From contig NZ_NEVS01000004.1 of NCBI RefSeq assembly GCF_002261215.1, positions 1,736,001-1,800,000 on the forward strand: a DNA stretch of 64,000 nt. Direction: 5' to 3'. The notes under the pieces were generated by a model. It saw nothing but the letters and a program-made list of their open reading frames with translations, did no database searches and was not told the DNA's origin. This document shows, in pieces, positions 604-21,471 of the stretch. The position numbers were made by a program, and so were the translations under genes. This DNA is from Bordetella genomosp. 11 (lineage in GTDB: Bacteria; Pseudomonadota; Gammaproteobacteria; Burkholderiales; Burkholderiaceae_B). The first letter of the stretch is position 1; each line of letters starts with the position of its first letter.

Positions 604-1452
604 ATGGCTGGCGTTCTGACCGGCAAGACAGTCGTCATTACAGGGGCAAGCCGAGGCATCGGACTGGCCGCGGCGCGCCTGTTCGCGGCGCAAGGCGCGT
701 CCCTGGCGCTATGCGCGCGCCAGGCCGGCCCGCTCGCGCTCGCCGCCGCCGAACTGGAATCGGCTTACGGCACGCCCGTACTGGCCAGGACCGCTGACAT
801 CCGCGACGACGCCTCGGTACGGGCCTTCGCCGCCGAGGTGAACGCGCGATTCCGCCAGGTGGACGTGCTGGTCAACAACGCCGGCGAATCCTCGCAGCGC
901 GAAGCGGACGGCATCCACTGGCCCGTCAATGCGGTCGACTCGGTCGGACAGGATCTGCCGCCGGGCCGTTTCTCGCTGATCAGCGACGATGAGTGGCGGT
1001 CCGCCCTCGAACAGAAGCTGCTCGGCATGGTACGCGTCACCCGGGCATTCCTGCCGCTGCTGCGGCAGGCAGGCGGCGGGAGCATCGTCAACATGGCATC
1101 GATCAAAGGACGGCAGCCGCCGCCGCGCGTCGTCACATCCGGCGTCGCCTGGGCGGCCGTCATCAATCTCAGCAAGAGCCTATCCCTGGAGCTGGCCGGT
1201 GACGGAATCCGGGTCAATGTGATCAGCGTGGGCGGCATATTGACCAGCCAGATGGAAGCGGGACAGCAGAAGTGGGCGCCCGGCAAAAGCCTTCAGGAGT
1301 TCCTGGCGCCTCGTACCGCGAACATTCCGCTCAAGCGGCTGGGAACGGTGGAAGAAGTCGCCCAAACCATTTATTTCCTTGGGTCGCCGGCATCGGCCTA
1401 CATCACCGGCCAATGCCTGGCCGTCGATGGCGGCGGATCCCGGGCCATCTAA
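604..1452 (+). CDS. SDR family protein with degenerate catalytic site
   Basis: Short-chain dehydrogenase/reductase fold, 282 aa. The cofactor motif TGASRGIG is at residues 15-20 region, NNAG at 91-94, and the C-terminal VDGGGSRAI is normal. The usual active-site Ser is S166. The positions 13 and 17 residues later, which should be Tyr and Lys of YxxxK, are S179 and W183 in TSGVAWAAVINLSKSL. Proton transfer by the classical mechanism is therefore unlikely. The ATG at 604 follows AAGGAG and was chosen over a longer upstream frame that overlaps the previous gene. The next gene starts 19 bases on. It may be a binding or isomerase-like protein, or belong to an SDR subgroup with a non-canonical site. 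Confidence 0.85.
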   Translation: MAGVLTGKTVVITGASRGIGLAAARLFAAQGASLALCARQAGPLALAAAELESAYGTPVLARTADIRDDASVRAFAAEVNARFRQVDVLVNNAGESSQREADGIHWPVNAVDSVGQDLPPGRFSLISDDEWRSALEQKLLGMVRVTRAFLPLLRQAGGGSIVNMASIKGRQPPPRVVTSGVAWAAVINLSKSLSLELAGDGIRVNVISVGGILTSQMEAGQQKWAPGKSLQEFLAPRTANIPLKRLGTVEEVAQTIYFLGSPASAYITGQCLAVDGGGSRAI

Positions 1453-1471
1453 ACCGAAACAGGAGCCAGCC

Positions 1472-2401
1472 ATGGCCAACCCTCAAGTCAACGCGCCTGA
1501 ACATGTCCAGGTCGTGCCCACCGGCGCCGCGCTGGGCGCGGAAATTCGTGGCGTCGATCTCTCTCAACCCGTACCCGAAGCCACCAAGGCCTTGCTGCGT
1601 AAAGCGTGGGCGGAACATCTCGTGCTTTTGTGGCGGGACCAGGCGCTGCCGGAAACCACGTTCCTGGATGCCGCGGCGATCTTCGGCGAAACCAAGGAGC
1701 CGGCCGCGCGCAAATTCCAGGTCGCGGGCGGCTTTACCGTCGGCGGCAAGCGCATCGCGATCGATCCCCGGGTATCGCTGATCTCCAACCTGGACGAGAA
1801 CGGCGATCCGGTCAAGGATAACGGCACGCTGGGCAGCTACGAAGTGGTCTGGCATACCGACAACTCCTACGCCGAGGTACCGCCGGCCGGCAGCATGCTG
1901 TACGCCATTACGCTGCCCGTCAATGGCGGCGGCGATACGAGCTTCAACAATCAATACCTTGCCTACGAGGAATTGCCGGACGACCTGAAACAGGCCATCC
2001 AAGGCAGGCAGCAACTGCACGATGCCAGCCGCAACAGCGCGGGCATCCTGCGGCCCACCGTGAAACTGCCCACCACACCGGAAGAAGTGCCGGGCCCGAT
2101 ACACCCGCTGGTGCGCAAGCATCCCGTGACCGGGCGCCCTGCCCTTTATCTTGGCCGCCGCCGCGATTGGCCTTCGAGCTACATCATCGGCATGAGCAAT
2201 GAAGAAAGCGAACGGCTGCTCGATCGTCTCTGGGCGCATGCGACGCAAGAGAAATACGCGTGGAAGCATGTCTGGAAGATCGGCGACCTCGTATTGTGGG
2301 ACAACCGCTGCACCATGCACTTCAGATCGGAGGTCGACCCGAAACAGGCACGCGTGCTTTATCGAACGGTCATCCGCGGCGAGGCGGTCATCGCCGGCTA
2401 G
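1472..2401 (+). CDS. TauD/TfdA family Fe(II)/2-oxoglutarate dioxygenase
   Basis: Predicted 309-aa cytoplasmic dioxygenase that would couple 2-oxoglutarate decarboxylation to hydroxylation of an acid or sulfonate. The iron facial triad is visible as H128-x-D130 (VWHTDNSY) and H283 (CTMHFR). R294 and R298 lie 11 and 15 residues after the last His, as in TauD, and would hold 2-oxoglutarate. The start at 1472 is preceded by AGGAGCC and gives the normal family length. It is last in the plus-strand set ComA-like, SDR, TauD-like, and a hairpin follows. Family members act on taurine, 2,4-D, alkyl sulfates or gamma-butyrobetaine; the sequence does not settle which. Neighbours make an organosulfur substrate reasonable. 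Confidence 0.88.
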   Translation: MANPQVNAPEHVQVVPTGAALGAEIRGVDLSQPVPEATKALLRKAWAEHLVLLWRDQALPETTFLDAAAIFGETKEPAARKFQVAGGFTVGGKRIAIDPRVSLISNLDENGDPVKDNGTLGSYEVVWHTDNSYAEVPPAGSMLYAITLPVNGGGDTSFNNQYLAYEELPDDLKQAIQGRQQLHDASRNSAGILRPTVKLPTTPEEVPGPIHPLVRKHPVTGRPALYLGRRRDWPSSYIIGMSNEESERLLDRLWAHATQEKYAWKHVWKIGDLVLWDNRCTMHFRSEVDPKQARVLYRTVIRGEAVIAG

Positions 2402-2465: not shown

Positions 2466-3074
2466 TCATGTCAATGCATCGACGACATGCCGCTTGTAGG
2501 CACGATGGGTGCACAGCCTCAGGTAATAGCTGCGCAGCGCGGGAAGATGATCCGGCGGCGTATCCAGCAAGGTCCAGCGATGGACATGCGGCCCCAGCGC
2601 CACATCCCCGATACCGAGCCGCTCGCCGCCGGCATAGGGACTTCCGCTGAGGACATGGTCCAGCATCCGCGCCAGGCCGTCGACGCGTGCACGCAGCGCG
2701 TTCACGTCGGCAGCGGCTGGCTCCCCTTTCAGCCCGCGGCGCAGCGCGAACATCGCCGGGCCGAAGTTGATCGACGCCCAGTCCATCCATTTATCGGAGA
2801 CCGCGCGTTCACGCGCGGCCACCGGCCAAAGGCTTGCCGAACCGTATTGCGCCGCGAGATAGCGCACGACCGCGTTCGACTCCCACAGCACCAGGCTGCC
2901 ATCGACCAGCGTGGGCACGCGGGCGTTCGGATTCATCTCCAGGTAGTTCGATGTATCCAGGCCGCCGAACTCTCCACCCGCCTGGCGTAGCGTATAGGCG
3001 ATACCGAGCTCGTCGAGCGTCCAGAACACCTTGGCCGAGTTCGAGGACGAAGCCCTTCCCCAGACATCCATCAT
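2466..3074 (-). CDS. Glutathione S-transferase family protein
   Basis: Protein of 202 aa with an N-terminal thioredoxin-like domain (about 1-80) and a helical C-terminal domain. The cis-proline segment NARVPTLVDG and the ESNAVVRYLAAQYG element, which binds the gamma-glutamyl part of glutathione, are both present. Near the N-terminus, SSSNSAK supplies candidate Ser residues for thiol activation. It is the last gene of the long minus-strand operon, 32 bases after the thiol dioxygenase. A glutathione-dependent step or detoxification of a reactive sulfur intermediate fits the context, but no substrate can be read from the sequence. A second Met at 3071 is an alternative start. Confidence 0.88.
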   Translation of the reverse strand: MMDVWGRASSSNSAKVFWTLDELGIAYTLRQAGGEFGGLDTSNYLEMNPNARVPTLVDGSLVLWESNAVVRYLAAQYGSASLWPVAARERAVSDKWMDWASINFGPAMFALRRGLKGEPAAADVNALRARVDGLARMLDHVLSGSPYAGGERLGIGDVALGPHVHRWTLLDTPPDHLPALRSYYLRLCTHRAYKRHVVDALT

Positions 3075-3106
3075 GTCAGCACTCCTTCAGTGTGCGCCGT
3101 CCGGCA

Positions 3107-3715
3107 TCAGGCGTCGCGACCCACGGTGGGGCGCATGTAGTTTTTGTTGTAGTTGGACACTTTGCCGGTATCCAGGTCATAGCCCAGCCTGTCCGTCAGC
3201 GTTTCCAGCGGCTGGCCGTACAGGTGGAAGTGACGGACCGTCTGGTTGCCGTCCACGTGGATGCTATGGATATCCTTGGGCAGGAAGTTGATGGGCGACC
3301 CGGGCTTGACCACATATTCGCGGACCTGCTCCAACCGCGCATGTTCCGGATCGCTGCCGTCGTCCACGCGTCGATAGATGCGATTGAGTTCCTCGCCGCT
3401 GACCGCGACGATCACCGCCCAGGTGCCGTGGTCGTGCGGCTTGGTCGACTTGCCCGGAATAATGACGTTGATGTATAGCGTCATATTGCTGTCGGGTTGC
3501 TGCGCCAGCAGGTAGCGCGAGGACGTCGCGCCCGATTCCTTGGTGGGCTCCGGGAACTCCTCCGTGGGAAAGAGATCCGTGCGCTCCGCCAGCGACTGCA
3601 GGCGCGCGCTGATGCGCTCCAGCGTCGCGCGGTCCGGTTGCCCATTGCCGAGAATGCGTTCAAGGTCCCCCATCGTCTCCTGTACGAGGGCCTGGCGTTC
3701 GGATTTAATCGTCAT
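3107..3715 (-). CDS. Cysteine dioxygenase-type thiol dioxygenase (cupin)
   Basis: Non-haem iron enzyme of 202 aa in the cysteine dioxygenase / 3-mercaptopropionate dioxygenase family, which oxidises a thiol to a sulfinate with O2. H94 and H96 (KPHDHGTW) and H150 (KDIHSIHV) match the three-His iron site. HFHLYGQP (H162-Y166) matches the conserved His and Tyr of the active site. It sits between the rhodanese-repeat gene (27 bases upstream) and the GST gene. With the lyase and amino acid transporter of the same operon this implies oxidation of a released thiol such as cysteine or 3-mercaptopropionate. Which thiol is used cannot be told. Confidence 0.88.
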   Translation of the reverse strand: MTIKSERQALVQETMGDLERILGNGQPDRATLERISARLQSLAERTDLFPTEEFPEPTKESGATSSRYLLAQQPDSNMTLYINVIIPGKSTKPHDHGTWAVIVAVSGEELNRIYRRVDDGSDPEHARLEQVREYVVKPGSPINFLPKDIHSIHVDGNQTVRHFHLYGQPLETLTDRLGYDLDTGKVSNYNKNYMRPTVGRDA

Positions 3716-3742
3716 TGTTAACGTCCTTGGAAGTTGGCGACG

Positions 3743-5455
3743 CTAGCGCGTCGCGGTAGGTGCGGCCTGGCTGTCAAGACCGAATCGAAAGCCATCAGCG
3801 GCGACTTGCCGCAGCAGATTCTTTTCCCAGTTCAAATAGGTTTTCATTGCATCCTTGTTGCCGGCCCGGCGGCCTGGCGCCCATTGCATGAAATCGATGC
3901 GATCCTCGGCCGGGAGGGCATCGTCATCCGACCCCACCACCGGCAGTCCCGCGGCGACCCAGGCGCGCTGACCGCCTCGCACGACCCGGATGTCCGCCTC
4001 GCTGCCCCCCGGCCTGCGCAGCAGGTCGAAGGCGGCGAGTTGGGCAACCCGCCCGTCATCCGAAAATAACACCAGGCCGCGTCCCTGGGCGATCGCGTCG
4101 TCCAGCCGATCGAGCCGGGCGCGGTTGGCCCACATCGCGCCGATAGGATGAGCCGCCAGGTAATCCACGCTGCGATCCAGCGACACCGCGACGGCGCCCG
4201 CATTCAGCGCGACCTGGGCGGCCGCGGGATCGATCTCCGGGACGGCCTGGAACGAGCCCCGCAGCTCGCGCTGCACCCGGGCCGCTTCGTCCGCGCCAAC
4301 GCTGCCGACGCTGCCGACGCTGCCGACACATGGCTCGCCCGCGTCGACCGCCCCGGAAGGCAGGTCCCGTGGGGACGCGGCCTCGAGCACATAGGTATCC
4401 CATCCCATCTGCAAAAGCCAGTGTGCCGTCGTCGTCGCGCGAATGCCATCGGTATCCGTCAGCACCACGCGAGCGCCCAGGGTCCCCAGCCATTGGTCGC
4501 TGGCCTGCACCAATTGCCCGCCCGGCGCATTGCGGGCCATGGGATGATGTCCGCCGGTGTATTCGGCCGGGGTGCGGACGTCGAATACGAAGGTGGTCCT
4601 TGCCGGATTGGCGAGCCATCCCTTCAAATCGTCATCGCTGGCCGTCGGAACGCCGAAGCGCCGCGCCACCGCCTCCGCGCGAGGCCGCGCCGCCGCCACG
4701 CCGGCGGCGGTTACCGCCGTACGTCCGGCGAATCCCCGCTCCAGTTCGCGGCCGGACAAGCGCCAGCCGTGATTCCCGTCGGCAAGGTGGACAACCCGGT
4801 TGGGCACGCCGGCGTTGATCAGCGACTGGGCACCGACTATCCCGCGCGTGCGCCCGCCGCAAGCCACCACGACCAGCGTTTGCGCCGAGGGAACCAGGTC
4901 GCCGAATCGATAGACCAGCTCCGCGCCGGGACAACTGACGGCCCCGGGCACGTGGCCCGCCGCATGCTCGGCTTCCGTCCGGGGATCCAGCACGATCAGG
5001 TCCTTACCCGCCTGCTGCAGGCCGGCAAGCGCATCGGCATCGATATGCGGCGTGTCGAAATGGGCTTCCACCCACTCCCCGAATGCCTTGCTCGGCACAT
5101 AGACCCCGACGAATACCTCGCCGCCGGCCGCGGCCCAGGCGGCGACGCCGCCCGGGAACAGGCTGATGTCCGCATAGCCCAGGGCGGACAGCCGTTCAGC
5201 CGCGCGCTGGACGATCCCGTTGTCCGAGCCCATCAGGACAATCGGACAGTTCTTGCGCGGGACCAGCGGCGTGATGAGCAGCTCGAGGCGGCTATATGGA
5301 ACATTCACGGCGCGCAGCAAATGGCCCAGGCAGAACTGGCCCTCTTCGCTTATGTCCAGCAGGGCGATCTCCGCGCGATGCCGGGACATTGTGTCGGAGA
5401 CGCGCGCCAGCGCCGCTTTCAGCGCGGCAGCGTCCAGTTTCGGAAAAGTTTTCAT
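3743..5455 (-). CDS. Four-domain rhodanese-like protein with one catalytic Cys
   Basis: A 570-aa protein with no signal peptide, made of four rhodanese-like domains (about 10-135, 145-250, 275-375, 395-505) and a C-terminal tail. Only domain 2 has the active-site loop with Cys: VACGGRTRG, C199. The matching loops of domain 1 (LMGSDNG), domain 3 (LTDTDG) and domain 4 (LFSDDG) lack Cys. The linker before domain 4 contains a GSV repeat encoded by a 9-bp tandem repeat. The protein probably transfers sulfane sulfur from one active domain, with the others structural or regulatory. It follows the ABC transporter ATPase by 42 bases and precedes the thiol dioxygenase by 27, so it is part of the organosulfur operon. 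Confidence 0.88.
   Translation of the reverse strand: MKTFPKLDAAALKAALARVSDTMSRHRAEIALLDISEEGQFCLGHLLRAVNVPYSRLELLITPLVPRKNCPIVLMGSDNGIVQRAAERLSALGYADISLFPGGVAAWAAAGGEVFVGVYVPSKAFGEWVEAHFDTPHIDADALAGLQQAGKDLIVLDPRTEAEHAAGHVPGAVSCPGAELVYRFGDLVPSAQTLVVVACGGRTRGIVGAQSLINAGVPNRVVHLADGNHGWRLSGRELERGFAGRTAVTAAGVAAARPRAEAVARRFGVPTASDDDLKGWLANPARTTFVFDVRTPAEYTGGHHPMARNAPGGQLVQASDQWLGTLGARVVLTDTDGIRATTTAHWLLQMGWDTYVLEAASPRDLPSGAVDAGEPCVGSVGSVGSVGADEAARVQRELRGSFQAVPEIDPAAAQVALNAGAVAVSLDRSVDYLAAHPIGAMWANRARLDRLDDAIAQGRGLVLFSDDGRVAQLAAFDLLRRPGGSEADIRVVRGGQRAWVAAGLPVVGSDDDALPAEDRIDFMQWAPGRRAGNKDAMKTYLNWEKNLLRQVAADGFRFGLDSQAAPTATR
4301..4327. repeat. 9-bp tandem repeat, three copies, in rhodanese gene
   Basis: GCTGCCGAC occurs three times head to tail. 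On the coding (minus) strand it encodes the Gly-Ser-Val repeat in the linker before the fourth rhodanese domain. The unit is a multiple of three, so slippage would lengthen or shorten the linker without a frameshift. Confidence 0.9.
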
Positions 5456-5497
5456 GGGTGCATGACGTCTGGATGGAAGCCGGGGAAAATCGGGATA

Positions 5498-6295
5498 TCA
5501 GGCCAACGCGCCGCGCATGGCCAGGGCCGGCTGCGCCGGCATGCTCTCGACGCCATCGTTCTGCGCGCCGGGCCGCAGGATATCGGACAGGAAGCGCCTG
5601 GCGCGCGGATGCGTGGGATTGGCGAAGAATGCATGGGGATGCGCGTCCTCCAGGATCCTGCCCGCATCCATGAACCAGATCCGGTCGGCCACTTCCCGGG
5701 CGAAACCCATCTCGTGCGTAACGATGGCCATGGTCATTCCCTCCGACGCCAGTTGCTGCATCACGGCCAGGACTTCCCCCACCATTTCCGGATCCAGCGC
5801 GCTGGTGGGCTCGTCGAAAAGGATGACCGGCGGCCGCTGGGCCAGCGCGCGCGCAATCGCCACGCGCTGTTGCTGTCCGCCGGAAAGGCTGGCGGGCATC
5901 GCGTTCACCTTGCCGGCCAACCCGACCTTTTCCAGCAGCCCCCGGGCCAATTGCTCGGCCGCGTGCCGTGTCATGCCCCCGACCTTGATCGGCGAAAGCA
6001 CGATGTTTTCCAGCACCGACAGGTGGGGAAAAAGGTTGAACTGCTGGAAGACGAACCCGATGCCGGCACGCAGCATGTTCAGGTCGCTTCCCTTGGCATG
6101 CACGTCCTTGCCGCCCACCCATACGGAGCCGCGCTGGATGGGCTCCAGGGCATTCACGGTCCGGATCAGGGTGGACTTTCCCGATCCCGACGGACCGCAG
6201 ATCACCACCACCTCGCCGTCGGCCACCGTCCCGCACACGTCGTCGAGCGCGTGGTAGGAACCGTACCATTTCCCGACGTTCTTGAATTCGATCAT
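5498..6295 (-). CDS. Polar amino acid ABC transporter, ATP-binding protein
   Basis: ATPase of 265 aa in the GlnQ/HisP group. Walker [10 protein letters not shown], signature LSGGQQQR and Walker [14 protein letters not shown] are intact, as is the downstream switch His (VTHEMGFA). The ATG at 6295 was chosen because AAGGGG lies at a good distance; an in-frame ATG at 6301 is too close to it. It follows the second permease gene by 19 bases and would power import of an amino acid or amino-acid-like compound bound by the receptor at 7753-8598. Confidence 0.93.
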
Positions 6296-6314
6296 TGTCA
6301 TCCCCTTGTTTGTC

Positions 6315-7019
6315 TCATGCCAACGCCGGGGCGCGCACGGATTGCCGCCGGCGGAAATGCCGCTCGACCGCGGCGGTCGCGAAGGACAGGCCGTAGCAGA
6401 GGGTGAAGTAGATGCAGGCGAGCAGCAGATAGGTGTACAGCGCATGCGTCATCTCGACGCTGTTGATCTCCTGCGCCGCGAACGTCGCCTCCTGCACACC
6501 GATCACATAGACGATCGACGTGGCCTTGATCGTGGAGATGAACTGGTTGACGATGGACGGCAGCATATTGACCAGCGCCTGCGGCAGTATCACGTGGATC
6601 ATGGACTGGGCGTACGTCAGTCCCACCGCGCGCGCCGCCTCGGTCTGGCCCGTGGGCAGGCCCTGGATGCCCGCGCGAACGATCTCCGCCATAAAGGCGG
6701 CCTCGTAGACGACGATCGCGCTGCATGCCGTCGCGAAAGGCGAAATCGCATCGCCGATCAGCAGCGGCAACAGGTAGTAGGCCCAGAAAATGATCATGAC
6801 GAGCGGTATTCCGCGCAAGCCATAGACCCAGGCATTGGCGGGCCATCGGATCCATCGCCACGAGCTCGTGCGCGCCAGGCCCAATAGCAATGCCACCGGA
6901 AAGGACAGCGTCAGGCCCAATCCCGCCAGGATCAGCGTGCCCGCGATGCCTCCCAGGTGGCCATGCGGCCATGAGCCGATCAGCAGCAGCATTCCGTACT
7001 TGTGAATAATTTCCAGCAT
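6315..7019 (-). CDS. Polar amino acid ABC transporter permease
   Basis: Inner-membrane protein of 234 aa with about five hydrophobic helices. The cytoplasmic EAA loop is clear: [20 protein letters not shown]. The ATG at 7019 lies 5 bases after the stop of the partner permease; the much longer open frame to 7628 only reads through the partner gene in another frame. The two permeases would form the heterodimeric channel of the HisM/HisQ type. Confidence 0.92.
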
Positions 7020-7024
7020 TTCGC

Positions 7025-7720
7025 TCACCTTCCGAACGTGGGCGGATATCGACGTCCGAACCAGGCGCCGAATGTCATCAACAGCAGCGAGACCAGCAGA
7101 TAGAAGGCCGTCGCCACCGCGAAGACCTCGAATGCCCGGAACGTCAGGTTTTCGATGGCGCGGGTTTGATTCGTGAGTTCCGTCACGCCGATTGCCATCG
7201 CCAGGCTGGTGTCCTTGAACAGGATCAGCGAACGGTTCACCAGCGGCGGCACGCCGATACGCAGTGCCTGCGGCAATGTCACGTAGCGCAAAGCACGGAA
7301 CGCGCTCAGGCCGATCGAACGCGCGGCCTCCTGCTGCGCGGCGGGAATGGCGCGGAAGCCCGATCGTATGTCCTCGGTCATATACGCGCTGGCGTTGAGC
7401 GACAGCGCGACGAGCGCGAAGGAAAACTCGCCGTTGCCATGGTTGATCCAAAGCCGCAGCCCTTCCGGCAGGATATCCGGCATGCCGAAGTACCAGACCA
7501 TGATCTGGACCACGGTCGGCACATTGCGGTGATATTCGATGAATATCCGCAGTACGAGGCGCAGCGGACGCAGCGGGATCATGCCCAGGCCCACCAGGAC
7601 GATGGCCAGGGAGAACCCGCATACCCACGCGCCGGCGAATAGCCGAAGCGTGGTCGCCACCCCAAGCAGCAAGGCCGAGAGGACGTCATGCGACATCAAA
7701 AACGCGAAGTCGAATTGCAT
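7025..7720 (-). CDS. Polar amino acid ABC transporter permease
   Basis: Membrane protein of 231 aa, same family as the following gene, with the EAA loop QQEAARSIGLSAFRALRYV near residue 120. Several long hydrophobic segments are visible, beginning with a helix at about residues 15-40. It comes 32 bases after the receptor gene, the usual order for receptor, two permeases and ATPase. Confidence 0.92.
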   Translation of the reverse strand: MQFDFAFLMSHDVLSALLLGVATTLRLFAGAWVCGFSLAIVLVGLGMIPLRPLRLVLRIFIEYHRNVPTVVQIMVWYFGMPDILPEGLRLWINHGNGEFSFALVALSLNASAYMTEDIRSGFRAIPAAQQEAARSIGLSAFRALRYVTLPQALRIGVPPLVNRSLILFKDTSLAMAIGVTELTNQTRAIENLTFRAFEVFAVATAFYLLVSLLLMTFGAWFGRRYPPTFGR

Positions 7721-7752
7721 AGCGATCCGGGCCGGGCCGGCCCGCCTTTTCT

Positions 7753-8598
7753 CTACTGCTGATGGAGATCGACAGGCTCGACCTTGAAGGCGCGCACCAA
7801 CTTATACGGCGAGCCCGAGCCCATCCATTTGTCGTAGATCGCGCTCAGCTGGCCGCTGCGGTCCATCTCTACGATGATCTTGTTGATCGCGGCGAGCAGA
7901 TCCGGGTTTCCCTTGTTGACGACCAGCCCCATATGCTCGGTAAAAATCGGCTCGTCCAGCAGCACGGTGGGGTCCCCGGTTTTTTCCGATTCGATGCGAA
8001 AGCGGATCAAGCCCAGGTCTCCGCCCGGCATGGCCTCGACCTTGTCGCTTTGCAGCGCCAGATAGCACGCGGACACGTCCTGGAAGTTCAACATCGTGGA
8101 TTTGGTCAGGACACGCTGGGCCACCGCCGACGAGCTCGATCCCTTGGACGTGCAGACCTTCTTGCCGGCCAGATCGGCCAGCTTGGTAATGCCCGACTTT
8201 TTCTTGACCAGGAGGCGAATGTCGTCCTGCAGGTACTGCAGGCTATAGTCGATCTGCGCCGCCCGTTCAGGCAGATAGGCCATGGAGCCCGCGATCATGT
8301 CGACCCGTCCCATCTTCAGTTCCGGGATGCGCGCTTCGGTGGACAGGGCCTTGTGTTCCAGCTGGACGCCCAATCCTTTGGCTATCGCCTTGCACATATC
8401 CACGTCGTAGCCGACATATGTTCTTGTCTCGGCGTCCTGGAACGCATACGGGTTGGAAGCGTTCTGCGTGCCGCAGATCAGCTTGCCCCGCGATTTGATT
8501 TCGGCCAGGCGATCCGCGTGAGCCTGCGGCGCGCAGGCCAGGCCAACCGCCAGGACGGCAAAGCTGCACAGGCCGCGATAGCGCTGCGAAATTTTCAT
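7753..8598 (-). CDS. ABC transporter substrate-binding protein, family 3
   Basis: Periplasmic receptor of 281 aa. The ATG at 8598 is preceded by GGAGA and opens a signal peptide: basic MKISQRYR, hydrophobic core, then cleavage near AHA-DRLAEI. The mature part has the family-3 pattern: GKLICGTQN, the VGYDVDMCKAIAKGLG block, and LADLAGKKVCTSKGSS. Family members bind polar amino acids. Placement between a cystathionine beta-lyase gene and the permeases suggests the ligand is an amino acid or derivative that the operon breaks down, plausibly sulfur-containing. Confidence 0.92.
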   Translation of the reverse strand: MKISQRYRGLCSFAVLAVGLACAPQAHADRLAEIKSRGKLICGTQNASNPYAFQDAETRTYVGYDVDMCKAIAKGLGVQLEHKALSTEARIPELKMGRVDMIAGSMAYLPERAAQIDYSLQYLQDDIRLLVKKKSGITKLADLAGKKVCTSKGSSSSAVAQRVLTKSTMLNFQDVSACYLALQSDKVEAMPGGDLGLIRFRIESEKTGDPTVLLDEPIFTEHMGLVVNKGNPDLLAAINKIIVEMDRSGQLSAIYDKWMGSGSPYKLVRAFKVEPVDLHQQ

Positions 8599-8656
8599 GG
8601 AGAGTCTCCGTTGGAGTGAATGCATGTCGTGAAACACCTGCGACGCCGGCCCGGAA

Positions 8657-9820
8657 TCAGGCCGACGCCGCCGCAAAACCGCGCCGCAGGTCGTCCATCA
8701 GGTCCTGCGGATCCTCCATGCCCACGTGCAGGCGCAGCACCGGTCCGGCTGGCGCCCACTTCGTGACGGAGCGGGAACCGCCCGCCTTGACGACATTGAT
8801 CAGGCTCTCGTACCCGCCCCAGCTGGACCCGATACCGAAGAGCCGCAGGCTGTCGACCAGCTTCTCCAGCCGCGGCGCGAAGTCCGGCCGCAGCTCGACC
8901 GAAAACAGCGACGCGGCGCCGCTGAAATCCCGGCGCCACAGCGCGTGATCCGGATGGGTTTCGAGTGCCGGGTAGTTCACGCCGGCCACTTCGGGTTGCG
9001 CCTGCAGCCAGCGTGCCAACGCGAGCGCGTTCTCCATCTGCTGGCGCAGACGAACGCCCAGCGTCCGCAGGCCGCGCAAGCCCTGGTAGCAATCGTCCGG
9101 ACTCACGCTATAGCCCAGGTCGTCGACCGCGCGGTGGACGGCGTCCCAATGGGATGCACCGGCCGTGATCACACCCAGCATCAGGTCGGAATGCCCGCCG
9201 ATGTACTTGGTGGCGGCGTGGATCGAGACATCGATGCCGAGCTCGAAGGGTCGCAGGAAATACGGCGTCGCCCAGGTGTTGTCCGCGATCACGGGGATAC
9301 CGCGCGCGTGGGCGGCCGCGGCGATGGCGGGTATATCCTGGACCTCGAAGGTCTGTGAGCCGGGAGACTCGCAATAGACGGCGATAGTATCGGCCGTCAG
9401 CCGCTCTGCGATCCGCGCGCCGAGATGCGGATCGTAGAACTCCGTGCGCACCCCCCAGCTTGCCAGGCGCCCCTCGCAGAAGCGGCGGGCCGGCGTATAC
9501 ACGTTGTCGGGAACCAGCAGATGCCCGCCAGGGCGCGCGAACGCCGTCAGGCTGGCCACGACGGCGGCCAGGCCATTGGGTACGACCCGGCTCTTATGCC
9601 CGCCCTCCAGGCGCGCCATGGCTTCTTCGAACGCGTAGGTCGTGGGCGTGCCATGCCGGCCGTAGCGCACGAACTTGTCGCCCTGCTTCTTGCGGTCTTC
9701 ATAGGACGCCAGGGTCGGGAAGATGACCGTGGAGGTGCGATAGACCGGTGTATTGACCATGCCGCGATGGGCCTGGGGGTCGCGACCGGCGTGGACGAGC
9801 AGCGTATCGTTCTTCATCAT
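8657..9820 (-). CDS. metC: Cystathionine beta-lyase / PLP-dependent C-S lyase
   Basis: Cys/Met-metabolism PLP enzyme of 387 aa, close to the usual MetC length. The PLP-binding lysine is K205 in SIHAATKYIGGHSD; the cofactor aspartate is in VIADNTWATPYF; the SSWGGYESL motif near the C-terminus is typical of beta-lyases. It would release a thiol, pyruvate and ammonia from cystathionine or another S-substituted cysteine. Its start overlaps the end of the Bug gene by 4 bases, so the two are translationally coupled. In this operon a catabolic C-S lyase or cysteine desulfhydrase role is more likely than methionine synthesis; that is inferred. Confidence 0.85.
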   Translation of the reverse strand: MMKNDTLLVHAGRDPQAHRGMVNTPVYRTSTVIFPTLASYEDRKKQGDKFVRYGRHGTPTTYAFEEAMARLEGGHKSRVVPNGLAAVVASLTAFARPGGHLLVPDNVYTPARRFCEGRLASWGVRTEFYDPHLGARIAERLTADTIAVYCESPGSQTFEVQDIPAIAAAAHARGIPVIADNTWATPYFLRPFELGIDVSIHAATKYIGGHSDLMLGVITAGASHWDAVHRAVDDLGYSVSPDDCYQGLRGLRTLGVRLRQQMENALALARWLQAQPEVAGVNYPALETHPDHALWRRDFSGAASLFSVELRPDFAPRLEKLVDSLRLFGIGSSWGGYESLINVVKAGGSRSVTKWAPAGPVLRLHVGMEDPQDLMDDLRRGFAAASA

Positions 9821-10806
9821 GGGGCTTTGGCAGGAGAATTGATGGCGGTATGCGGCGCATCGGCGGTGTCGATACCGAGCAGCTGAGCCGCATGGACGGT
9901 GGTTTGCGCGATGAAGGCGCGCGCGTCGGCGGGGCTGCTGGGCGCCGCGATCATCCCTTCCGCCGCCAGCTTTTGCTGGGTATCGGGTTCCGCCAGCAGC
10001 GCCGCTACCGCGCCATTGAGCTTGGCCACGACATCCGCGGGCGTGCCCGCCGGCGCGGTGATGGCATAGAAGCTCTGCATGGCATACCCCGGCACCGTCT
10101 CGCCGATGGTCGGCAGATCCGGCATGAGGGGCGACCGCTTGGGCGTGGTAAGCCCCAGCGCCCGCAACTGCCCCGACTTGATCATGGGCGTGACGGACGG
10201 GTCGGCGAACATCATGTCGATATGCCCGCCCAGCAGGTCATTCACCGCCAGCGAGGTTCCCTTGTAGGGGATGTGCTGTATATCGACATGCGCCAGGCTG
10301 TTGAGCATGGCGCCGGCCAAATGCTGGCCGGTCCCGATACCGCCGGAACCCATCGTCAGCGAGCCTGGCTTGGCGCGCGCCAGCGCCAGCAGCTCGCTGA
10401 CACTCTTGACCGGAAGCGAGGGATGCACGACCAGGATTTGCGGGATCAGGACGACCAGCGATATCGGATCCAGGTCCTTCGACGGGGAATAAGGCAGGTT
10501 TTTGGTCAGCAAGGGCCCGATCGACAGCGGTCCCGTCCCGCCCACCAGCAGCGTATAGCCATCGGGACGCGCATGCGCCACGAAGGCGGCGCCGATGGTC
10601 CCGCCCGCGCCCGCGCGGTTTTCGACGACCACGGGCTGGCCCAGCCGCGACAGGCCCGTCGCCAACAGGCGTCCCACGAAGTCGACGCCCCCGCCCGGCG
10701 GATACGGGACGACGATGGTCACGGGCTTTTCCGGATACGTGCCGGCCCGGCTGGCGACAGGGATACAGCACAGGCAAATCAACATCATCAACAGCAAACG
10801 AGGCAT
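9817..10806 (-). CDS. Bug/TctC family periplasmic solute-binding protein
   Basis: Protein of 329 aa with a signal peptide rich in Cys, Leu and Met (cleavage near ASRA-GTYPEKPV). The family landmarks are IVVPYPPGGGVDFVGR, VVVENRAGAGG, ARPDGYTLLVG, and HIPYKGTSLAVNDLLGG. Bug proteins bind carboxylates or amino-acid-like ligands in the periplasm. No TctA or TctB gene is nearby, so it either serves a distant transporter or acts as a sensor. It is the only Bug gene in this window coupled to an ABC importer in the same operon. Confidence 0.92.
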   Translation of the reverse strand: MPRLLLMMLICLCCIPVASRAGTYPEKPVTIVVPYPPGGGVDFVGRLLATGLSRLGQPVVVENRAGAGGTIGAAFVAHARPDGYTLLVGGTGPLSIGPLLTKNLPYSPSKDLDPISLVVLIPQILVVHPSLPVKSVSELLALARAKPGSLTMGSGGIGTGQHLAGAMLNSLAHVDIQHIPYKGTSLAVNDLLGGHIDMMFADPSVTPMIKSGQLRALGLTTPKRSPLMPDLPTIGETVPGYAMQSFYAITAPAGTPADVVAKLNGAVAALLAEPDTQQKLAAEGMIAAPSSPADARAFIAQTTVHAAQLLGIDTADAPHTAINSPAKAP

Positions 10807-10883
10807 GGTCGACTCCGGCGGGCCCGCATGGGCCCATATGGGTAGGCTGGATAACTTCGTGCCGCCACCTACATGGCGGGGAA

Positions 10884-12563
10884 TTACTGTCCGTAGATCT
10901 TTTCAGCGGCCTCCCGGCTCACCAACCCCAGACGGATATCGCGTTCGACATCGTCGCGAGGGCGCTCGCGGGGATCGCCGATCCCACCGCCTCCTGGCGT
11001 TTCGATCACGACACGGTCGCCCGCGGGAACCAACTGGCGTCCCTTGCCGTTGAGGGTTTTGCCGGACTTCAGGCTCACCCTTCCGCTTCCGCCCGGCTGC
11101 CCGCCCAGTGCGCCGCGGGCGGGAAACTTGATGCGGTCGAAGGTCGCCGCCAGGATCATGGGCACATTCTCGGCATGCGACACTTCCACGATCTGTCCCA
11201 GGCCCCCGCGGAAGGTGCCCGGGCCGCCGGAATCCGGCCGGTATTCCTTGCGCCAGAACACCACCGGCGCCATGGTCTCGGAGATCTCGATCGCGGTATT
11301 GCGGACGCCGCTGGGGAACGATGTGGTGGACAGTCCGTCCTGCCTGGGCCGCGCCCCGGTTCCCCCGGTCGTGAACGACACCTGGGTAAACCGGCGGCCG
11401 GCGAGGAAGTCCTCCGCGGGCGCGCCGGCCATGGGTTGGCCGCCGACCAGGCGGATGTTCCACAGACTGGAAGCGCCCTCGGCCGGCACCCGGTCGGGAT
11501 GCGCCTGGCGCAGGCAACCGAAGATCACATCGGGCAACATCATCCCCACAATGGCGCGCGAGGTCACCGCGCACGGCGGCAGCGCGTTGACGATGGAGCC
11601 CTCCGGCGCTGTGACCTTGACGGCGCTCAAGGAGCCGGCGTTGTTCGGGATTTCGCCGCCGATGATGCAGCGCACGCCGAACGAGGTGTATGCGTCGGTA
11701 TATGACTTCGGCACATTCAGCGCGCGCTGCACGGTGCCGGAGCTGCCGGTGAAATCCACTTCGATGCCGGCGTCCGTCAGCTGCAACGATGCCTTCAGGT
11801 GGATCGGCGACTCGTAGCCGTCGATCGTCATTTCGTGATGCCACGTCCCCTTGGGCCAGTCCGCGAGCGCCTTGAGCATCGCGGCACGGGATTGCGCGAT
11901 GATGTGTTCGCCCAAGGGCACGAGCGTCTCCAGGCCATACTCGCTCATCATGCCGGCCAGGCGCTTACCCGCGACTTCGTTGCAGGACACAAGCGCGTAG
12001 ACATCGCCGATCACCTGCACCGGATCCCGCACATTGGCGCGCAGGAAGTCGAGCACCGTCTTGCTCATCACACCGCCATCGGCCAGTTTGGCGATCGGGA
12101 TGAACAGGCCCTCGTGATAGATCTGCGTGGCATCGGGACCGACGCCCACCCCGCCGATATCGACCACATGCGTGTTCGAGGCGAACAGGGCGATCAGGCT
12201 GTCGCCCCGGAAAACCGGCGTCACCACCGTGATGTCGAACAGATGGCCCGTTGCCTTCCAGGGATCGTTGGTGATGTATATATCGCCCGGCCGCATGCCG
12301 TCGGCGGGAAACTCCACGAGAAAATGGCGTACCGACTCGGCTACCGAATTGACGTGTCCCGGCGTACCCGTGACGGCCTGCGCGATCATCCGCCCGTCGG
12401 GCAGGAACAGGCCGGCGGAAACGTCGCCCGCTTCCCGCGCCGCCGCGCCGAACGCTGTGCGGATGATGGTCTGGGCCTGCTCCTCGACCACCGCGATAAG
12501 GCGATCCCAAAGGATCTGATTGCGGATAAGGGCAGTCGCCGAACGAGTGTCCTGGGTGCTCAT
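10884..12563 (-). CDS. hyuB: Hydantoinase B/oxoprolinase family protein
   Basis: Subunit of 559 aa of an ATP-dependent amidohydrolase in the hydantoinase/5-oxoprolinase/acetone carboxylase family. The family motif TNDPWKATGHLFDI, followed by NTHVVDIGG, and the C-terminal Gly-rich IETPGGGGIGDPRERP are present. It overlaps the HyuA gene by 4 bases (ATGA) and would act with it as a complex that opens a five-membered cyclic amide using ATP. The following Bug gene is 77 bases away. Confidence 0.93.
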   Translation of the reverse strand: MSTQDTRSATALIRNQILWDRLIAVVEEQAQTIIRTAFGAAAREAGDVSAGLFLPDGRMIAQAVTGTPGHVNSVAESVRHFLVEFPADGMRPGDIYITNDPWKATGHLFDITVVTPVFRGDSLIALFASNTHVVDIGGVGVGPDATQIYHEGLFIPIAKLADGGVMSKTVLDFLRANVRDPVQVIGDVYALVSCNEVAGKRLAGMMSEYGLETLVPLGEHIIAQSRAAMLKALADWPKGTWHHEMTIDGYESPIHLKASLQLTDAGIEVDFTGSSGTVQRALNVPKSYTDAYTSFGVRCIIGGEIPNNAGSLSAVKVTAPEGSIVNALPPCAVTSRAIVGMMLPDVIFGCLRQAHPDRVPAEGASSLWNIRLVGGQPMAGAPAEDFLAGRRFTQVSFTTGGTGARPRQDGLSTTSFPSGVRNTAIEISETMAPVVFWRKEYRPDSGGPGTFRGGLGQIVEVSHAENVPMILAATFDRIKFPARGALGGQPGGSGRVSLKSGKTLNGKGRQLVPAGDRVVIETPGGGGIGDPRERPRDDVERDIRLGLVSREAAEKIYGQ

Positions 12564-14683
12564 GCTTCACCTCGCTGTGCCTTCGACGATCGGTCGCGGT
12601 CGATGATCAGATAGTGGCGGGCGTCGACCCGGGCGGTGAAACCGGCGGGAACGACGGTGGTCGTCTGGTCCTCGACGATCAGGGCCGGTCCGTCGATGTG
12701 GTCCGACACGGACAAGGCCTCGCGATCGAAGGCGGGTATGTCGACCGCGCGCGCCAGCGCCGTGTCGAAAACGGGCCGATAGGCCGAGGGCGCGGGCCTG
12801 CGTATCCCGGCGGGACGGCGGTCCTCGTCCTGCGTGGCCGCCTGGCCGGTCGATACGGTCAGTGTCCAGGTCAGGATTTCGGCCCCGACGCCGGGGATGA
12901 TGCGGCCATACAGCGCGCGGTACTCTCGTTCGAACAGTTCGGCCAGGCCGCTGGCCAGCGCCGGCGTCAGTTGGGTGGACGGCAAGGTGACGGGGATTTC
13001 ATGCCCCTGCCCCCGGTAGCGCATGAACGCGACACAGCGCGTTTCGAGCCGGCTGCCTTTCGGGGCGGCGCTTTCCACGGCCGCGCTGGCTTCCAGGTAC
13101 ATGCTTTCCAGCACACGGTTCACCGCATCCAGGTCGATGCCATCCGTGGACTGATAGAGGCTGCGCAGTGCCTGGTAGGCAATCGGGGCCCAGAGGAAGC
13201 CCAGCGCCGACCCGACGCTTGCGCCCACCGGGACGATGATGCGGTCGATGCCCAGCTTGGCGGCCATCTGCACCGCGTGCAGGGGCGCCGCGCCACCGAA
13301 GGCGATCATCGTGTAGCGCTCGATATCCTTGCCCAACTCGATCCCGTGCACGCGGGCGGCGCACGCCATATTCTCCGCGACGATTTCGCTGATCGCCAAT
13401 GCTCCCATCTCGGCGCCCATTCCAAGCGGATCGGCGACGTCGCGCGCGATGGCGGCGCGCGCCGCGCCGGGCGCGAGGTTGACCTTGCCCGCGGCGAAGC
13501 GGGCCGGATCCAACAGCCCGAGCGCGCAGTTCGCGTCCGTCACCGTGGGGTGCGTTCCCCCGCGCCCGAAACAGGCCGGCCCGGGATTGGACGTCGCGCT
13601 GTCCGGCCCGACCTGGATGCGGCCGAGCGTGTCGACGTGCGCGATCGAGCCGCCCCCGGCGCCGATTTCGACCATCTCGATCACCGGGATCCGGATGGGA
13701 AGGCCCGAGCCTTTCAGGAAGCGATACATGCGGCCGAATTCGAAGGTCCGGGAGAGCTGCGGCGTGTACTCGTCGATGAAGCAGATCTTCGCGGTGGTGC
13801 CGCCCATGTCGTAGGAAAGCACGTGGCGCTCGCCGCATTGCTCGGCGATCCTGCGGCCCAGGATGGCGCCGCCGGCCGGGCCCGATTCCACCAGCTTGAC
13901 GGGTTGGCGAGCGCCCAATTCCAGCGAGGTCAGCGATCCGCCGGACGTCATCAGGTAAATGGGACAGCCCATTCCGGCTTCGCGCATCAGCCGGTCGAGT
14001 TCGCCCAGCGATCGCGCCACGACCGGCTGGACGTAGGCGTTGGCACAGGCGGTGGAGGTCCGCTCGTACTCGCGGACTTCCGGGCAGACGTCGGAAGATA
14101 GCGTGATCCAGAGATCCGGCAGCTCCTGAGCCAGGATCTGCCCGACCCTGGCTTCGTGCTCGGGATTGACGTAGCTGTGCAGGAACGATACAGCGACGCT
14201 TTCCACCGCGGCCTCGCGCAACTGGCAGGCGACGCGGCGCACCGCGGCCTCGTCCAGCGGCAACAGCGTCCTGCCGTGGACGTCGATACGTTCGGGTATG
14301 CCGAAGCGCAGGTCGCGCGGCACCAGCGGTACCGGTTTTTCCAGGAAGATATCGTATTGCGCGTAGCGGTTTTCCTGCCCGATCTCGACGACGTCGCGAA
14401 ATCCCTCGGTCGTAATCAAGGCCGTGCGCGCGCCCTTGCGTTCGATCAGCGCGTTCGTGGCCAGCGTGGTGCCCAGGATGAAGAGCGCGACTTCGCTGGC
14501 AGGCAGCCCCGCCTTGGCCAGGACTTCCCGCGCGCCCTGCAGCACGCCCAATTCCGGCTGCAGCGGCGTGGTAAGTACCTTGGTGGTGTGCGTCTTCGCG
14601 CCGACCATCAGTACGGCGTCGGTGAACGATCCGCCGATGTCGACGGCCAGCACCGCGCGCGGGCTGGGGATAGTGGTGTCCAT
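12560..14683 (-). CDS. hyuA: Hydantoinase A/oxoprolinase family protein
   Basis: ATPase subunit of 707 aa with the actin-like fold. Phosphate loops are VDIGGSFTDAV near the N-terminus and SYDMGGTTAK in the middle; SGPAGGAILG and FGGAAPLHA are further family signatures. It is the first gene of the 11-gene operon and faces a CysB-like regulator across 167 bases. 5-Oxoprolinases of this family also open 2-oxothiazolidine-4-carboxylate to give cysteine, which is relevant because the rest of the operon handles thiols and amino acids. The true ring substrate is not known. Confidence 0.93.
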   Translation of the reverse strand: MDTTIPSPRAVLAVDIGGSFTDAVLMVGAKTHTTKVLTTPLQPELGVLQGAREVLAKAGLPASEVALFILGTTLATNALIERKGARTALITTEGFRDVVEIGQENRYAQYDIFLEKPVPLVPRDLRFGIPERIDVHGRTLLPLDEAAVRRVACQLREAAVESVAVSFLHSYVNPEHEARVGQILAQELPDLWITLSSDVCPEVREYERTSTACANAYVQPVVARSLGELDRLMREAGMGCPIYLMTSGGSLTSLELGARQPVKLVESGPAGGAILGRRIAEQCGERHVLSYDMGGTTAKICFIDEYTPQLSRTFEFGRMYRFLKGSGLPIRIPVIEMVEIGAGGGSIAHVDTLGRIQVGPDSATSNPGPACFGRGGTHPTVTDANCALGLLDPARFAAGKVNLAPGAARAAIARDVADPLGMGAEMGALAISEIVAENMACAARVHGIELGKDIERYTMIAFGGAAPLHAVQMAAKLGIDRIIVPVGASVGSALGFLWAPIAYQALRSLYQSTDGIDLDAVNRVLESMYLEASAAVESAAPKGSRLETRCVAFMRYRGQGHEIPVTLPSTQLTPALASGLAELFEREYRALYGRIIPGVGAEILTWTLTVSTGQAATQDEDRRPAGIRRPAPSAYRPVFDTALARAVDIPAFDREALSVSDHIDGPALIVEDQTTTVVPAGFTARVDARHYLIIDRDRSSKAQRGEA

Positions 14684-14771
14684 ACCTTCCCTGATTGGTT
14701 GTCCGCCCGCGCTCTAACAAAGTGCCGTTGCGAAGGCGTGACGGGAAGGTAGCAAGCGCCCCCGATAAATC

Positions 14772-14789
14772 ATAATATTTATATATTAT
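14772..14789. promoter_or_regulatory. AT-rich palindrome, putative operator
   Basis: ATAATATTTATATATTAT is a near-perfect 18-bp palindrome (8 of 9 positions match in each half) in very AT-rich DNA between hyuA and the divergent LysR gene. Position and symmetry suit a LysR/CysB-type binding site controlling both directions. Confidence 0.5.
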
Positions 14790-14850
14790 TAGCTATTCGA
14801 AAAACCTATACTGGGCCTGGAATATACGGTCCGGAAGGCAAGGGAATTCC

Positions 14851-15792
14851 GTGAATCTCCAGCAATTGCGCTTCATCACCGAGGTTGCCCGCCGCGACCT
14901 GAAAGTCTCGCGCGTGGCCGAACTGCTGCATGTCTCCCAACCCAGCGTCAGCACGCAGATCCGGTTGCTGGAAGAAGAATTGGGGCTGACGATATTCACG
15001 CGCCAGCGCAACCGGCTGACCGCGATCACGCCGATAGGCGGGGAAATCATCGAACGGGCACGCCGCGCCCTGATGGAGATCGACGATATACGGCAGCTTG
15101 CCAACGCGCACAGCGCCGATGACAGCGGCACGCTGACGATCGCCGCCAGTCACGCGCAGGCAAGGTTCAGGCTTCCCGTGATCCTGAAGAAGTTCGCGGA
15201 TCTTTATCCCCGCGTACACATCACGATACGCCCGGAGAGCGGGCGCCAGATCACCGATACGATGCGCGCGGGCCAGGCCGACATCGGCATTCTCAGTTCG
15301 CCCGGGGATCTCCAGGGCGACTTGTTCGGCATCCCGTTCCAGACGTATCGGCGGTTGCTGCTGGTGGCCGCGGGACACCCCCTGCTCAAGGTGCCGCGCC
15401 CCACCTTCGACGATATCGCCCGCTATTCCATCGTGATGTACGAACCGTCGCAGACCGGCTCGGTCGTGCTCGACACCCTGGAACGCCTGGGCAAGCAGGC
15501 CCCGACCCTGCTCAAGGCCACGAATGCCGATGTCGTGAAGGCCTATGTGGAGCAAGGCCTGGGAGTCAGCGTCCTGCCGGAACTTGTCTTCGATCCCAAG
15601 CGCGACCGCGGACTGCGGGCAATCAATGTGGACCACCTGTTCTCCGCCAGCACGACCTTCATCGTGCTCAACCGCAAGCATTACCTGCGCGCGTACGCCT
15701 ATGCGTTCATCGAGATTCTCGCTCCCCAGGTAACGCGCCGTACCGTGGAAGAAGGCCAGCACGCGCCGCCCGCGGGTTTACCTCAGCCCTAG
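14851..15792 (+). CDS. LysR family regulator, CysB-like
   Basis: Regulator of 313 aa. The N-terminal MNLQQLRFITEVARRDLKVS and the helix-turn-helix around VAELLHVSQPSVSTQIRLLEEELG are of the CysB/Cbl type, which in enterobacteria responds to sulfur status through O-acetylserine or adenylyl sulfate. The ligand-binding domain follows. GTG is the start, after AGGGAATTCC, and sets the standard CysB N-terminus. It is divergent from the hyuA operon and very probably controls it. That the group is CysB-like strengthens the sulfur reading of the operon; the effector is unknown. Confidence 0.9.
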   Translation: MNLQQLRFITEVARRDLKVSRVAELLHVSQPSVSTQIRLLEEELGLTIFTRQRNRLTAITPIGGEIIERARRALMEIDDIRQLANAHSADDSGTLTIAASHAQARFRLPVILKKFADLYPRVHITIRPESGRQITDTMRAGQADIGILSSPGDLQGDLFGIPFQTYRRLLLVAAGHPLLKVPRPTFDDIARYSIVMYEPSQTGSVVLDTLERLGKQAPTLLKATNADVVKAYVEQGLGVSVLPELVFDPKRDRGLRAINVDHLFSASTTFIVLNRKHYLRAYAYAFIEILAPQVTRRTVEEGQHAPPAGLPQP

Positions 15793-16489: not shown

Positions 16490-17398
16490 CTAGGCTGCGC
16501 GCACGGCGTCGCGGATATGGCCGAGAAAGGCCTTGCACGCATCCGGCAGGATGCGCCCGGCCAGGGTTTGCACCTCGAAGTGACGCTCGTTCATTTCGCG
16601 GTCGCGCAGGGGAACGGCGATCACGCTGCCGTATTGCAGCCGTCCACGGACAGGCAGCTCCCCGCATAACGCCACGCCGCCCCCCGCGCTGGCGAAGCTG
16701 ATCAGGGCATCGATATGCCGGCTGACGAACACCGGCTCGTAGCGCAACTGCTGGCGGCTGCTGCTGATATCGAACAACTGGCGCAAGGTCGAATCGCGGT
16801 CCGGCAGCGCCAGCGGGTAGGCCGCCACCTGCGCCAGCGACAGCGTGCGCTTGCCCGCCAGGGGATGATCGGGTGCGAGGACGGCCAGGACGGGCGCGGG
16901 CGTGCGCAGCTCGACGCGGATGTCGCGCTCGGATGTCAGGCTCAAGGTCAGGCCGATATCGGCCTCGCCATCGCGGATGCGGCGCGGAACGTCCTGCTGC
17001 GAACACACATCCAGCGAAAAGCGGATGCCGGCGTAGCTTTGCCGGAACGTGGCGATCAGGGACGGGATGAAGTCGAACGCATAGCCTTCCGTGCTGACCA
17101 GCCGCACCTTCCCATGGCGCAGGCCGCGCAGGGCCAGGATGTCCCCGGCCACCCGCTCGACGTCCTGCTGCATGCGTTTCGCGTGCGCGGCCAGCACCTC
17201 TCCCGCGGCGTTCGGCACCATGCCGCGCGCGCGCCGCTCGAACAACAGGGTGTTCAGTTCGCGTTCCAGGCGGGCAATCTGCCGGCTGACCGCCGACGGC
17301 GCGACGTCCAGGCGCTCCGCCGCCTCGGTCACGGACCCCGAGCGCACGACTTCCAGGAAATACCGCAGCGCGGTGCCTTGGAGAACCTGATTGTTCAT
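16490..17398 (-). CDS. LysR family regulator
   Basis: Regulator of 302 aa with helix-turn-helix SGSVTEAAERLDVAPSAVSR at about residues 20-40 and a substrate-binding domain after it. The start at 17398 (MNNQVLQGTALRYF) gives the standard LysR N-terminus; a GTG/ATG further up at 17458 adds 20 atypical residues. It is divergent from the D-serine dehydratase gene, with a perfect LysR-box between them. In enterobacteria the dehydratase is controlled by the LysR protein DsdC, so an analogous role is likely. Confidence 0.88.
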   Translation of the reverse strand: MNNQVLQGTALRYFLEVVRSGSVTEAAERLDVAPSAVSRQIARLERELNTLLFERRARGMVPNAAGEVLAAHAKRMQQDVERVAGDILALRGLRHGKVRLVSTEGYAFDFIPSLIATFRQSYAGIRFSLDVCSQQDVPRRIRDGEADIGLTLSLTSERDIRVELRTPAPVLAVLAPDHPLAGKRTLSLAQVAAYPLALPDRDSTLRQLFDISSSRQQLRYEPVFVSRHIDALISFASAGGGVALCGELPVRGRLQYGSVIAVPLRDREMNERHFEVQTLAGRILPDACKAFLGHIRDAVRAA

Positions 17399-17435
17399 GG
17401 ATGGGTCCGATGGGGAATTGGGGCGACGATGTGGA

Positions 17436-21467: not shown

Positions 21468-21471
21468 CGCG

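Follow-up and report, generated by a model that had tools for sequence, protein, structure and literature searches.

We analysed a 64,000-nucleotide stretch of DNA from Bordetella genomosp. 11 (assembly GCF_002261215.1, contig NZ_NEVS01000004.1, positions 1,736,001 to 1,800,000; hereafter the window) and found that its positions 2466 to 15792 hold an operon of 11 minus-strand genes together with a divergent CysB-like LysR-type regulator (Table 1). Read outward from the regulator, the operon encodes the two subunits of an ATP-dependent cyclic amide hydrolase (HyuA and HyuB), a Bug/TctC receptor, a C-S lyase, a polar amino acid (PAAT) importer consisting of a binding protein of the SBP_bac_3 family, two permeases and an ATPase, a rhodanese, a cupin thiol dioxygenase and a glutathione S-transferase (GST)-fold protein. 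The 11-gene unit had been described in a first-pass annotation, and every part named there is present where it was placed.

Table 1. Features of the operon and its regulator, in window coordinates.
Feature	Position	Strand	Basis
LysR-type regulator, CysB-like, divergent	14851..15792	+	Pfam HTH_1 and LysR_substrate
AT-rich dyad between LysR and HyuA, candidate regulator site/operator	14770..14791		conserved block; putative function
HyuA, ATP-binding subunit of ATP-dependent cyclic amide hydrolase	12560..14683	-	PF05378/PF01968/PF19278
HyuB, metal-site subunit	10884..12563	-	PF02538
Bug/TctC periplasmic receptor	9817..10806	-	PF03401
Cystathionine beta-lyase family C-S lyase (Cys/Met-metabolism PLP enzyme)	8657..9820	-	TIGR01324
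Polar amino-acid binding protein SBP_bac_3	7753..8598 (ORF open to 8676)	-	PF00497
ABC permease 1	7025..7720	-	PF00528 and TIGR01726 above cut-off
ABC permease 2	6315..7019	-	frame of ORF 6315-7628
ABC ATPase	5498..6301 (ORF open to 6445)	-	PF00005
Four-unit rhodanese protein, one active loop (Cys199)	3743..5455	-	PF00581, 3 stretches
Cupin thiol dioxygenase, Msdo-related, own clade	3107..3715	-	8vni, 171.5 bits
GST-fold protein	2466..3074	-	PF13417/PF13410

The ten gene junctions range from -20 to +77 nt, the widest (77 nt) falling between HyuB and Bug, while the -20 value stems from an over-long start of the binding protein, which probably begins near 8598; similarly, the ATPase starts near 6301/6295 rather than at 6445. 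An open reading frame (ORF) at 6298-6972, considered as the second permease, lies in the wrong frame and has no Pfam match, the true gene being the one listed in Table 1. A simple scan of positions 2300-2600 found neither a terminator-like nor a sigma-70-like site.

A comparison of gene order, as the first-pass annotation had proposed for Bordetella and Achromobacter, revealed that all operon genes are present in identical order in Achromobacter aloeverae (genome G001, contig C13; loci L001 and L265), with protein identities of 89% for LysR, 82% for HyuA, 87% for HyuB, 74% for Bug, 84% for the lyase, 86% for the binding protein, 88% for each permease, 81% for the ATPase, 72% for the rhodanese, 80% for the dioxygenase and 72% for the GST (72-89% overall). 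Between LysR and HyuA, that genome has one additional gene (L265:3094-4827), which encodes a further rhodanese in which Pfam recognises four units; the window lacks it. Because the order is kept in A. aloeverae, it reflects more than chance. Among the 268 family genomes searched, a set drawn from outside Bordetella, A. aloeverae alone has a HyuB of more than 64% identity; its genome contains 15 HyuB-type genes (at E values no higher than 1e-20) along with four paralogues of the dioxygenase. The AT-rich dyad sits next to LysR in a block common to the window and A. aloeverae. As for the regulator, its assignment to the CysB group in the first-pass annotation agrees with its best NCBIfam match ("CysB family"), though the score of 305 bits is below the cut-off of 402.

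The dioxygenase gives the clearest indication of the chemistry. Its best match of solved structure is mercaptosuccinate dioxygenase (Msdo, 8vni; 171.5 bits), compared with 24.7 bits for 3-mercaptopropionate dioxygenase and 23 bits for cysteine dioxygenase. These scores rule out the cupin as either of the latter two enzymes and speak against cysteine as the thiol, where the first-pass annotation had inferred a cysteine-like one. The closest named homologues are those of Bordetella genomosp. 8, 9 and 10 (86, 84 and 81% identity). The iron ligands H94, H96 and H150, assigned by homology, are kept in the window protein together with the H162-x-H164-x-Y166 motif; across three groups of dioxygenases, H94, H96, H150, H164 and Y166 occur in 111 of 111 sequences and H162 in 110. 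In a tree of these 111 sequences the window enzyme belongs to a 30-member clade (support 0.994), 18 true-Msdo sequences form a separate clade (support 1.0), and a third set of 63 has no supported clade of its own. The scan took the best 80 of 568 confirmed matches, so that the group sizes are not frequencies.

The remainder of the gene set points in the same direction. In Advenella mimigardefordensis DPN7 (MIM_c37410-37480), genes for LysR, Msdo, a cystathionine beta-lyase, a rhodanese and a four-part PAAT importer lie adjacent to one another, and the sulfinosuccinate that Msdo forms from mercaptosuccinate breaks down to succinate and sulfite, according to the excerpted text of a study in which mercaptosuccinate was of interest as a precursor for polymer production (PMC5373536). 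The same source places a rhodanese and a beta-lyase beside msdo in Variovorax paradoxus B4 and views the rhodanese of that strain as serving cofactor synthesis for sulfite oxidation. The window holds LysR, a Msdo-type cupin dioxygenase, beta-lyase, rhodanese and PAAT importer together, with HyuAB, the Bug receptor and the GST added. Thus, the first-pass statement that no described operon has exactly this set holds for the full set, but not for its core, which that work had already described.

The importer strengthens this kinship. Its parts are 57-61% (binding protein), 57-63% (permeases) and 68-72% (ATPase) identical to those at true-Msdo loci, with such kin present in four of the 16 Msdo loci (L166, L171, L177 and L178), while at 78 loci of the third group identity reaches no more than 36% in the binding protein, 42 and 40% in the two permeases and, at L057 alone, 60% in the ATPase, which elsewhere stays at or below 55%. 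The 16 Msdo loci come from 20 fetched, of which L173, L181 and L182 belong to other groups and L179 gave no dioxygenase ORF; genes were called by a simple GC-position score that missed some, the dioxygenase itself being recovered in 67 of 78 loci fetched for it. A beta-lyase relative occurs somewhere in 12 of the 16 Msdo loci and in 60 of the 78 third-group loci (loci of up to 20 kb), and a rhodanese relative in 14 and 64, respectively; in Acetobacteraceae (L060, L063 and L065, for example), the rhodanese relative is the only other window-type gene beside the dioxygenase. Since the gene set matches the Advenella cluster and the importer is kin to true-Msdo importers, we read the operon best as an enlarged variant of the known msdo-type cluster, to which HyuAB, a Bug receptor and a GST have been added.

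Other arrangements were seen among these loci. An alternative form of the true-Msdo operon (L172, L165, L167 and L180) contains an AstE/AspA-like hydrolase and a molybdopterin oxidoreductase, which at L172, along with a Bug receptor, stand in the place of the importer; the hydrolase hints at N-acylated substrates. At L181 and L182, a third-group dioxygenase is followed by a MmgE/PrpD-family gene, with no lyase there (checked with Pfam in L181).

The added HyuAB has the features of the ATP-dependent hydantoinase/oxoprolinase/lactamase family, in which 5-oxoprolinases are also placed (PMC8453981, in part). HyuA keeps the phosphate motifs at D15 and D292 and the NPGP motif at 366-369, and HyuB residues D47, H107, D110 and H132 match the Asp-His-Asp-His metal ligands D41, H99, D102 and H124 of the caprolactamase subunit CapB; in caprolactamase, little or no activity was left after mutation of the aspartates equivalent to D15 and D292 and of the metal ligands (PMC8453981). 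The two-subunit build, phosphate motifs and metal ligands are shared with CapAB, hydantoinase HyuAB and N-methylhydantoinase, although the N-methylhydantoinase 7hk5 is one fused chain. HyuAB is not itself CapAB: the scores of 472 bits (CapA) and 174 bits (CapB) are far below the equivalog cut-offs of 1000, and the vicinal Cys pair of CapB is not present in the aligned window HyuB.

The lyase scores 435.6 bits against the model for bacterial cystathionine beta-lyase (TIGR01324; cut-off 365.9), by which its substrate is predicted only. In E. coli numbering, the Lys210 equivalent is kept, while the Tyr238 and Asp116 equivalents are changed. The Asp116 change was considered as a sign of a new substrate and set aside as weak, for five housekeeping-like paralogues from the same genomes also lack the Asp; Tyr238 is retained in these paralogues, so that its loss and the Ala58 of Msdo-type lyases hold better as distinguishing changes. 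At the position of Arg58 in E. coli MetC and in most of the other lyases compared, all 13 Msdo-operon lyases examined in L163-L180 carry Ala. The rhodanese was described in the first-pass annotation as four-domain; alignment does show four rhodanese-like units, but Pfam scores only three stretches. Its C-x-G-R-T-R loop (Cys199) does not vary among the 88 family members aligned, the window protein included (88 of 95 cluster members, 480-800 aa); in the window protein it is the only loop with a catalytic Cys, the remaining three having none. Transfer of sulfane sulfur to sulfite by this protein would fit.

We hypothesize, with confidence evenly divided for and against, that the operon encodes a msdo-type organosulfur route of import, beta-cleavage and mercapto-acid oxidation, in which HyuAB opens a cyclic form of the substrate. 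Uptake by the PAAT importer would supply an S-substituted cysteine whose side chain bears a carboxylate, the beta-lyase would convert it to pyruvate, ammonia and a mercapto-acid, and the thiol dioxygenase would oxidise the mercapto-acid to an unstable sulfinate that yields sulfite and an ordinary acid. The rhodanese, via Cys199, would pass sulfane sulfur to sulfite, giving thiosulfate, or otherwise handle the released sulfur. A cyclic amide form of the S-substituted cysteine, perhaps delivered by the Bug receptor, would be opened by HyuAB with expenditure of ATP; the GST would keep the thiol reduced, and the CysB-like LysR would sense a sulfur metabolite. We infer every reaction, the order of the reactions and all substrates from the gene content, protein families, catalytic residues and importer kinship observed above. 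The scheme of import, C-S cleavage and thiol oxidation sketched in the first-pass annotation was thus a fair reading of the parts, except for cysteine as the thiol.

Several findings weigh against this route. The window dioxygenase lies outside the Msdo clade, being 44% identical to 8vni, to which 17 ORFs of the Msdo group are 59-76% identical, and its clade has S65, G97 and V101 in place of the Q65, T97 and C101 of true Msdo. The regulator belongs to a different LysR group from those of the Msdo operons. The lyase carries R58/H59, the common pairing among third-group lyases (52 and 50 of 55), instead of the A58/R59 of 13 of 13 Msdo-operon lyases. At L002, whose dioxygenase is of the same clade as that of the window, no beta-lyase, PAAT importer or HyuAB is found in the 20.6 kb of the locus. 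Family searches of the 11 operon genes identified no N-carbamoylase and no racemase; since an N-carbamoylase is lacking there, the HyuAB substrate is more probably a lactam than a hydantoin. On the other hand, a link between HyuAB and sulfur genes would favour the route: a dioxygenase, lyase or rhodanese gene lies within 12 kb at eight of the 29 loci whose HyuB is 57% or more identical (the A. aloeverae operon being among the eight), at five of 39 loci at 45-57%, and at none of 25 below 45% (Fisher test of close against distant HyuB, p 0.005). That test, however, is uncorrected for relatedness and ignores shared ancestry, 21 of the 29 close loci have no such neighbour, and the intermediate loci are not distinguishable from the distant ones (p 0.15). 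Of the HyuAB found outside operons of this type, the two closest (67-68%; Variovorax SRS16 and a Cupriavidus plasmid) have no such sulfur genes nearby.

The neighbourhood count covers 93 loci with one HyuB each, including 13 A. aloeverae (G001) paralogues and 16 plasmid regions. The loci derive from three HyuB searches (25 of 26 with flanks, 20 of 20, and 23 of 39 places, G739 being represented by 21 bases only), in which the best three to five candidates per genome were scored and two of which covered samples of larger families. Before the count, 25 loci that had been fetched for the dioxygenase or that overlapped were excluded, and L151 was counted as having no such neighbour, its lyase set being more than 12 kb away. 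We regard the link of HyuAB to sulfur genes as suggestive. That the whole HyuAB clade is linked to sulfur was also considered and is weakened, with clear sulfur genes in three of 11 annotated plasmid regions (HyuB 46-55%), namely Klebsiella L187 (TauE/SafE, with a molybdopterin oxidoreductase), Bradyrhizobium L196 (phosphosulfolactate synthase) and Paracoccus L188. On the last, a Paracoccus yeei plasmid, metC, an Asp/Glu racemase gene and HyuAB are consecutive, with a TauE/SafE sulfite exporter gene nearby.

These neighbourhoods bear on whether the operon is instead two units side by side, HyuAB and Bug forming an unrelated cyclic-amide module that shares a transcript with the sulfur unit. The widest junction falls between HyuB and Bug, the nearest HyuAB relatives sit away from these sulfur genes, and HyuB-type genes are numerous per genome (15 in A. 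aloeverae). Yet the order is kept in A. aloeverae, with its further rhodanese placed directly before HyuA, and HyuAB is united with dioxygenase and lyase genes elsewhere: V. paradoxus VAI-C and G619 each have an uninterrupted run of dioxygenase, metC, HyuA and HyuB genes, and at Achromobacter L147 a four-unit rhodanese is divergent to HyuA, with a dioxygenase-lyase set on the opposite side. We consider two unrelated units unlikely.

HyuAB could also open a sulfur-containing five-membered ring, for example 2-oxothiazolidine-4-carboxylate, to cysteine, which the lyase would desulfhydrate or the dioxygenase oxidise. Besides the place of 5-oxoprolinases in the family, this agrees with a Pantoea dispersa plasmid (L186), where a 60%-identical HyuAB lies about 10 kb from a thiazoline-carboxylate (ATC) hydrolase gene, with genes for an M20 hydrolase, a D-cysteine desulfhydrase family protein and a rhodanese on the other side. 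The dioxygenase, at 23 bits, is not of the cysteine type, though, the 11 genes include neither an ATC hydrolase nor a racemase, and a literature search on 2-oxothiazolidine-4-carboxylate with oxoprolinase and bacteria returned only glutathione reviews, as judged by titles and the beginnings of abstracts; such a ring-opening route is highly improbable.

The GST, which shares the operon with HyuAB and the C-S lyase, raises the question of glutathione S-conjugates. Here the role of HyuAB would be sulfur-free: it would recycle 5-oxoproline from the breakdown of conjugates that the GST makes or handles and whose cysteine conjugate the lyase cleaves. In Pseudomonas L074 and L075, too, a relative of the window GST (26-27%) follows the dioxygenase; these and the A. 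aloeverae operon are, however, the only three of 80 dioxygenase loci with a match (by tblastn, which could miss distant GSTs), and no gamma-glutamyl cyclotransferase, transpeptidase or dipeptidase is among the 11 genes. We judge this explanation quite improbable.

In the msdo-type route, the thiol may not be mercaptosuccinate, because the dioxygenase is outside the Msdo clade, its residues 65, 97 and 101 differ and the lyase carries R58/H59; the dioxygenase may work like Msdo, but we do not class it as Msdo. Because the lyase has R58/H59 and not A58/R59, the side chain that it cleaves may likewise differ from that of the Msdo-operon enzymes. The Advenella importer proteins were induced on mercaptosuccinate, while deletion of the importer had no growth effect on any tested carbon source (PMC5373536, excerpted text); since it is induced yet dispensable, that importer probably serves a compound other than those tested. 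The presence of a beta-lyase also calls for explanation, because a route using only imported mercaptosuccinate needs none.

Among specific substrates, succinated cysteine, S-(2-succino)cysteine (2SC), with its lactam is the most appealing, though unproven, because beta-cleavage of 2SC would give exactly mercaptosuccinate, along with pyruvate and ammonia. Should this hold, the operon would act on the same substrate class as the 2SC pathways of Bacillus and others (PMC9706529 and PMC12757645, each in part). Those proceed via N-acetylation and give N-acetylcysteine (PMC12757645), whereas the operon would combine beta-cleavage with sulfur oxidation. The main text of PMC9706529 contains neither "mercaptosuccin-" nor "dioxygenase" nor "cystathionine", and none of the papers searched joins "mercaptosuccin" and "2-succino". 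A further-reaching version, which we hold to be distinctly unlikely, is that the operon provides complete acetylation-free disposal of succinated or S-carboxyalkylated cysteine including the lactam, with HyuAB an ATP-dependent thia-lactam hydrolase that supplies the beta-lyase and the thiol dioxygenase, and msdo clusters at large being S-conjugate catabolic systems whose natural substrate was overlooked. No described ATP-dependent thia-lactam hydrolase came up, in searches none of which was aimed at that alone.

On either side of the operon lie further genes that may be mentioned here. A TauD/TfdA-family dioxygenase gene (window 1379-2401) converges on its end. Beyond the regulator, a plus-strand set (17467-22707) encodes a PALP-family PLP enzyme, a Bug receptor, an amidase and an FAD oxidoreductase (DAO), with a LysR gene beside it at 16490-17458; it looks like another amide or amino acid catabolic operon.

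A thiol formed inside the cell from an imported cysteine conjugate would explain both the importer and the beta-lyase. If true, there would be a bacterial sink for succinated cysteine besides N-acetylation, and the comparison sharpens the question of what msdo-type clusters really consume.

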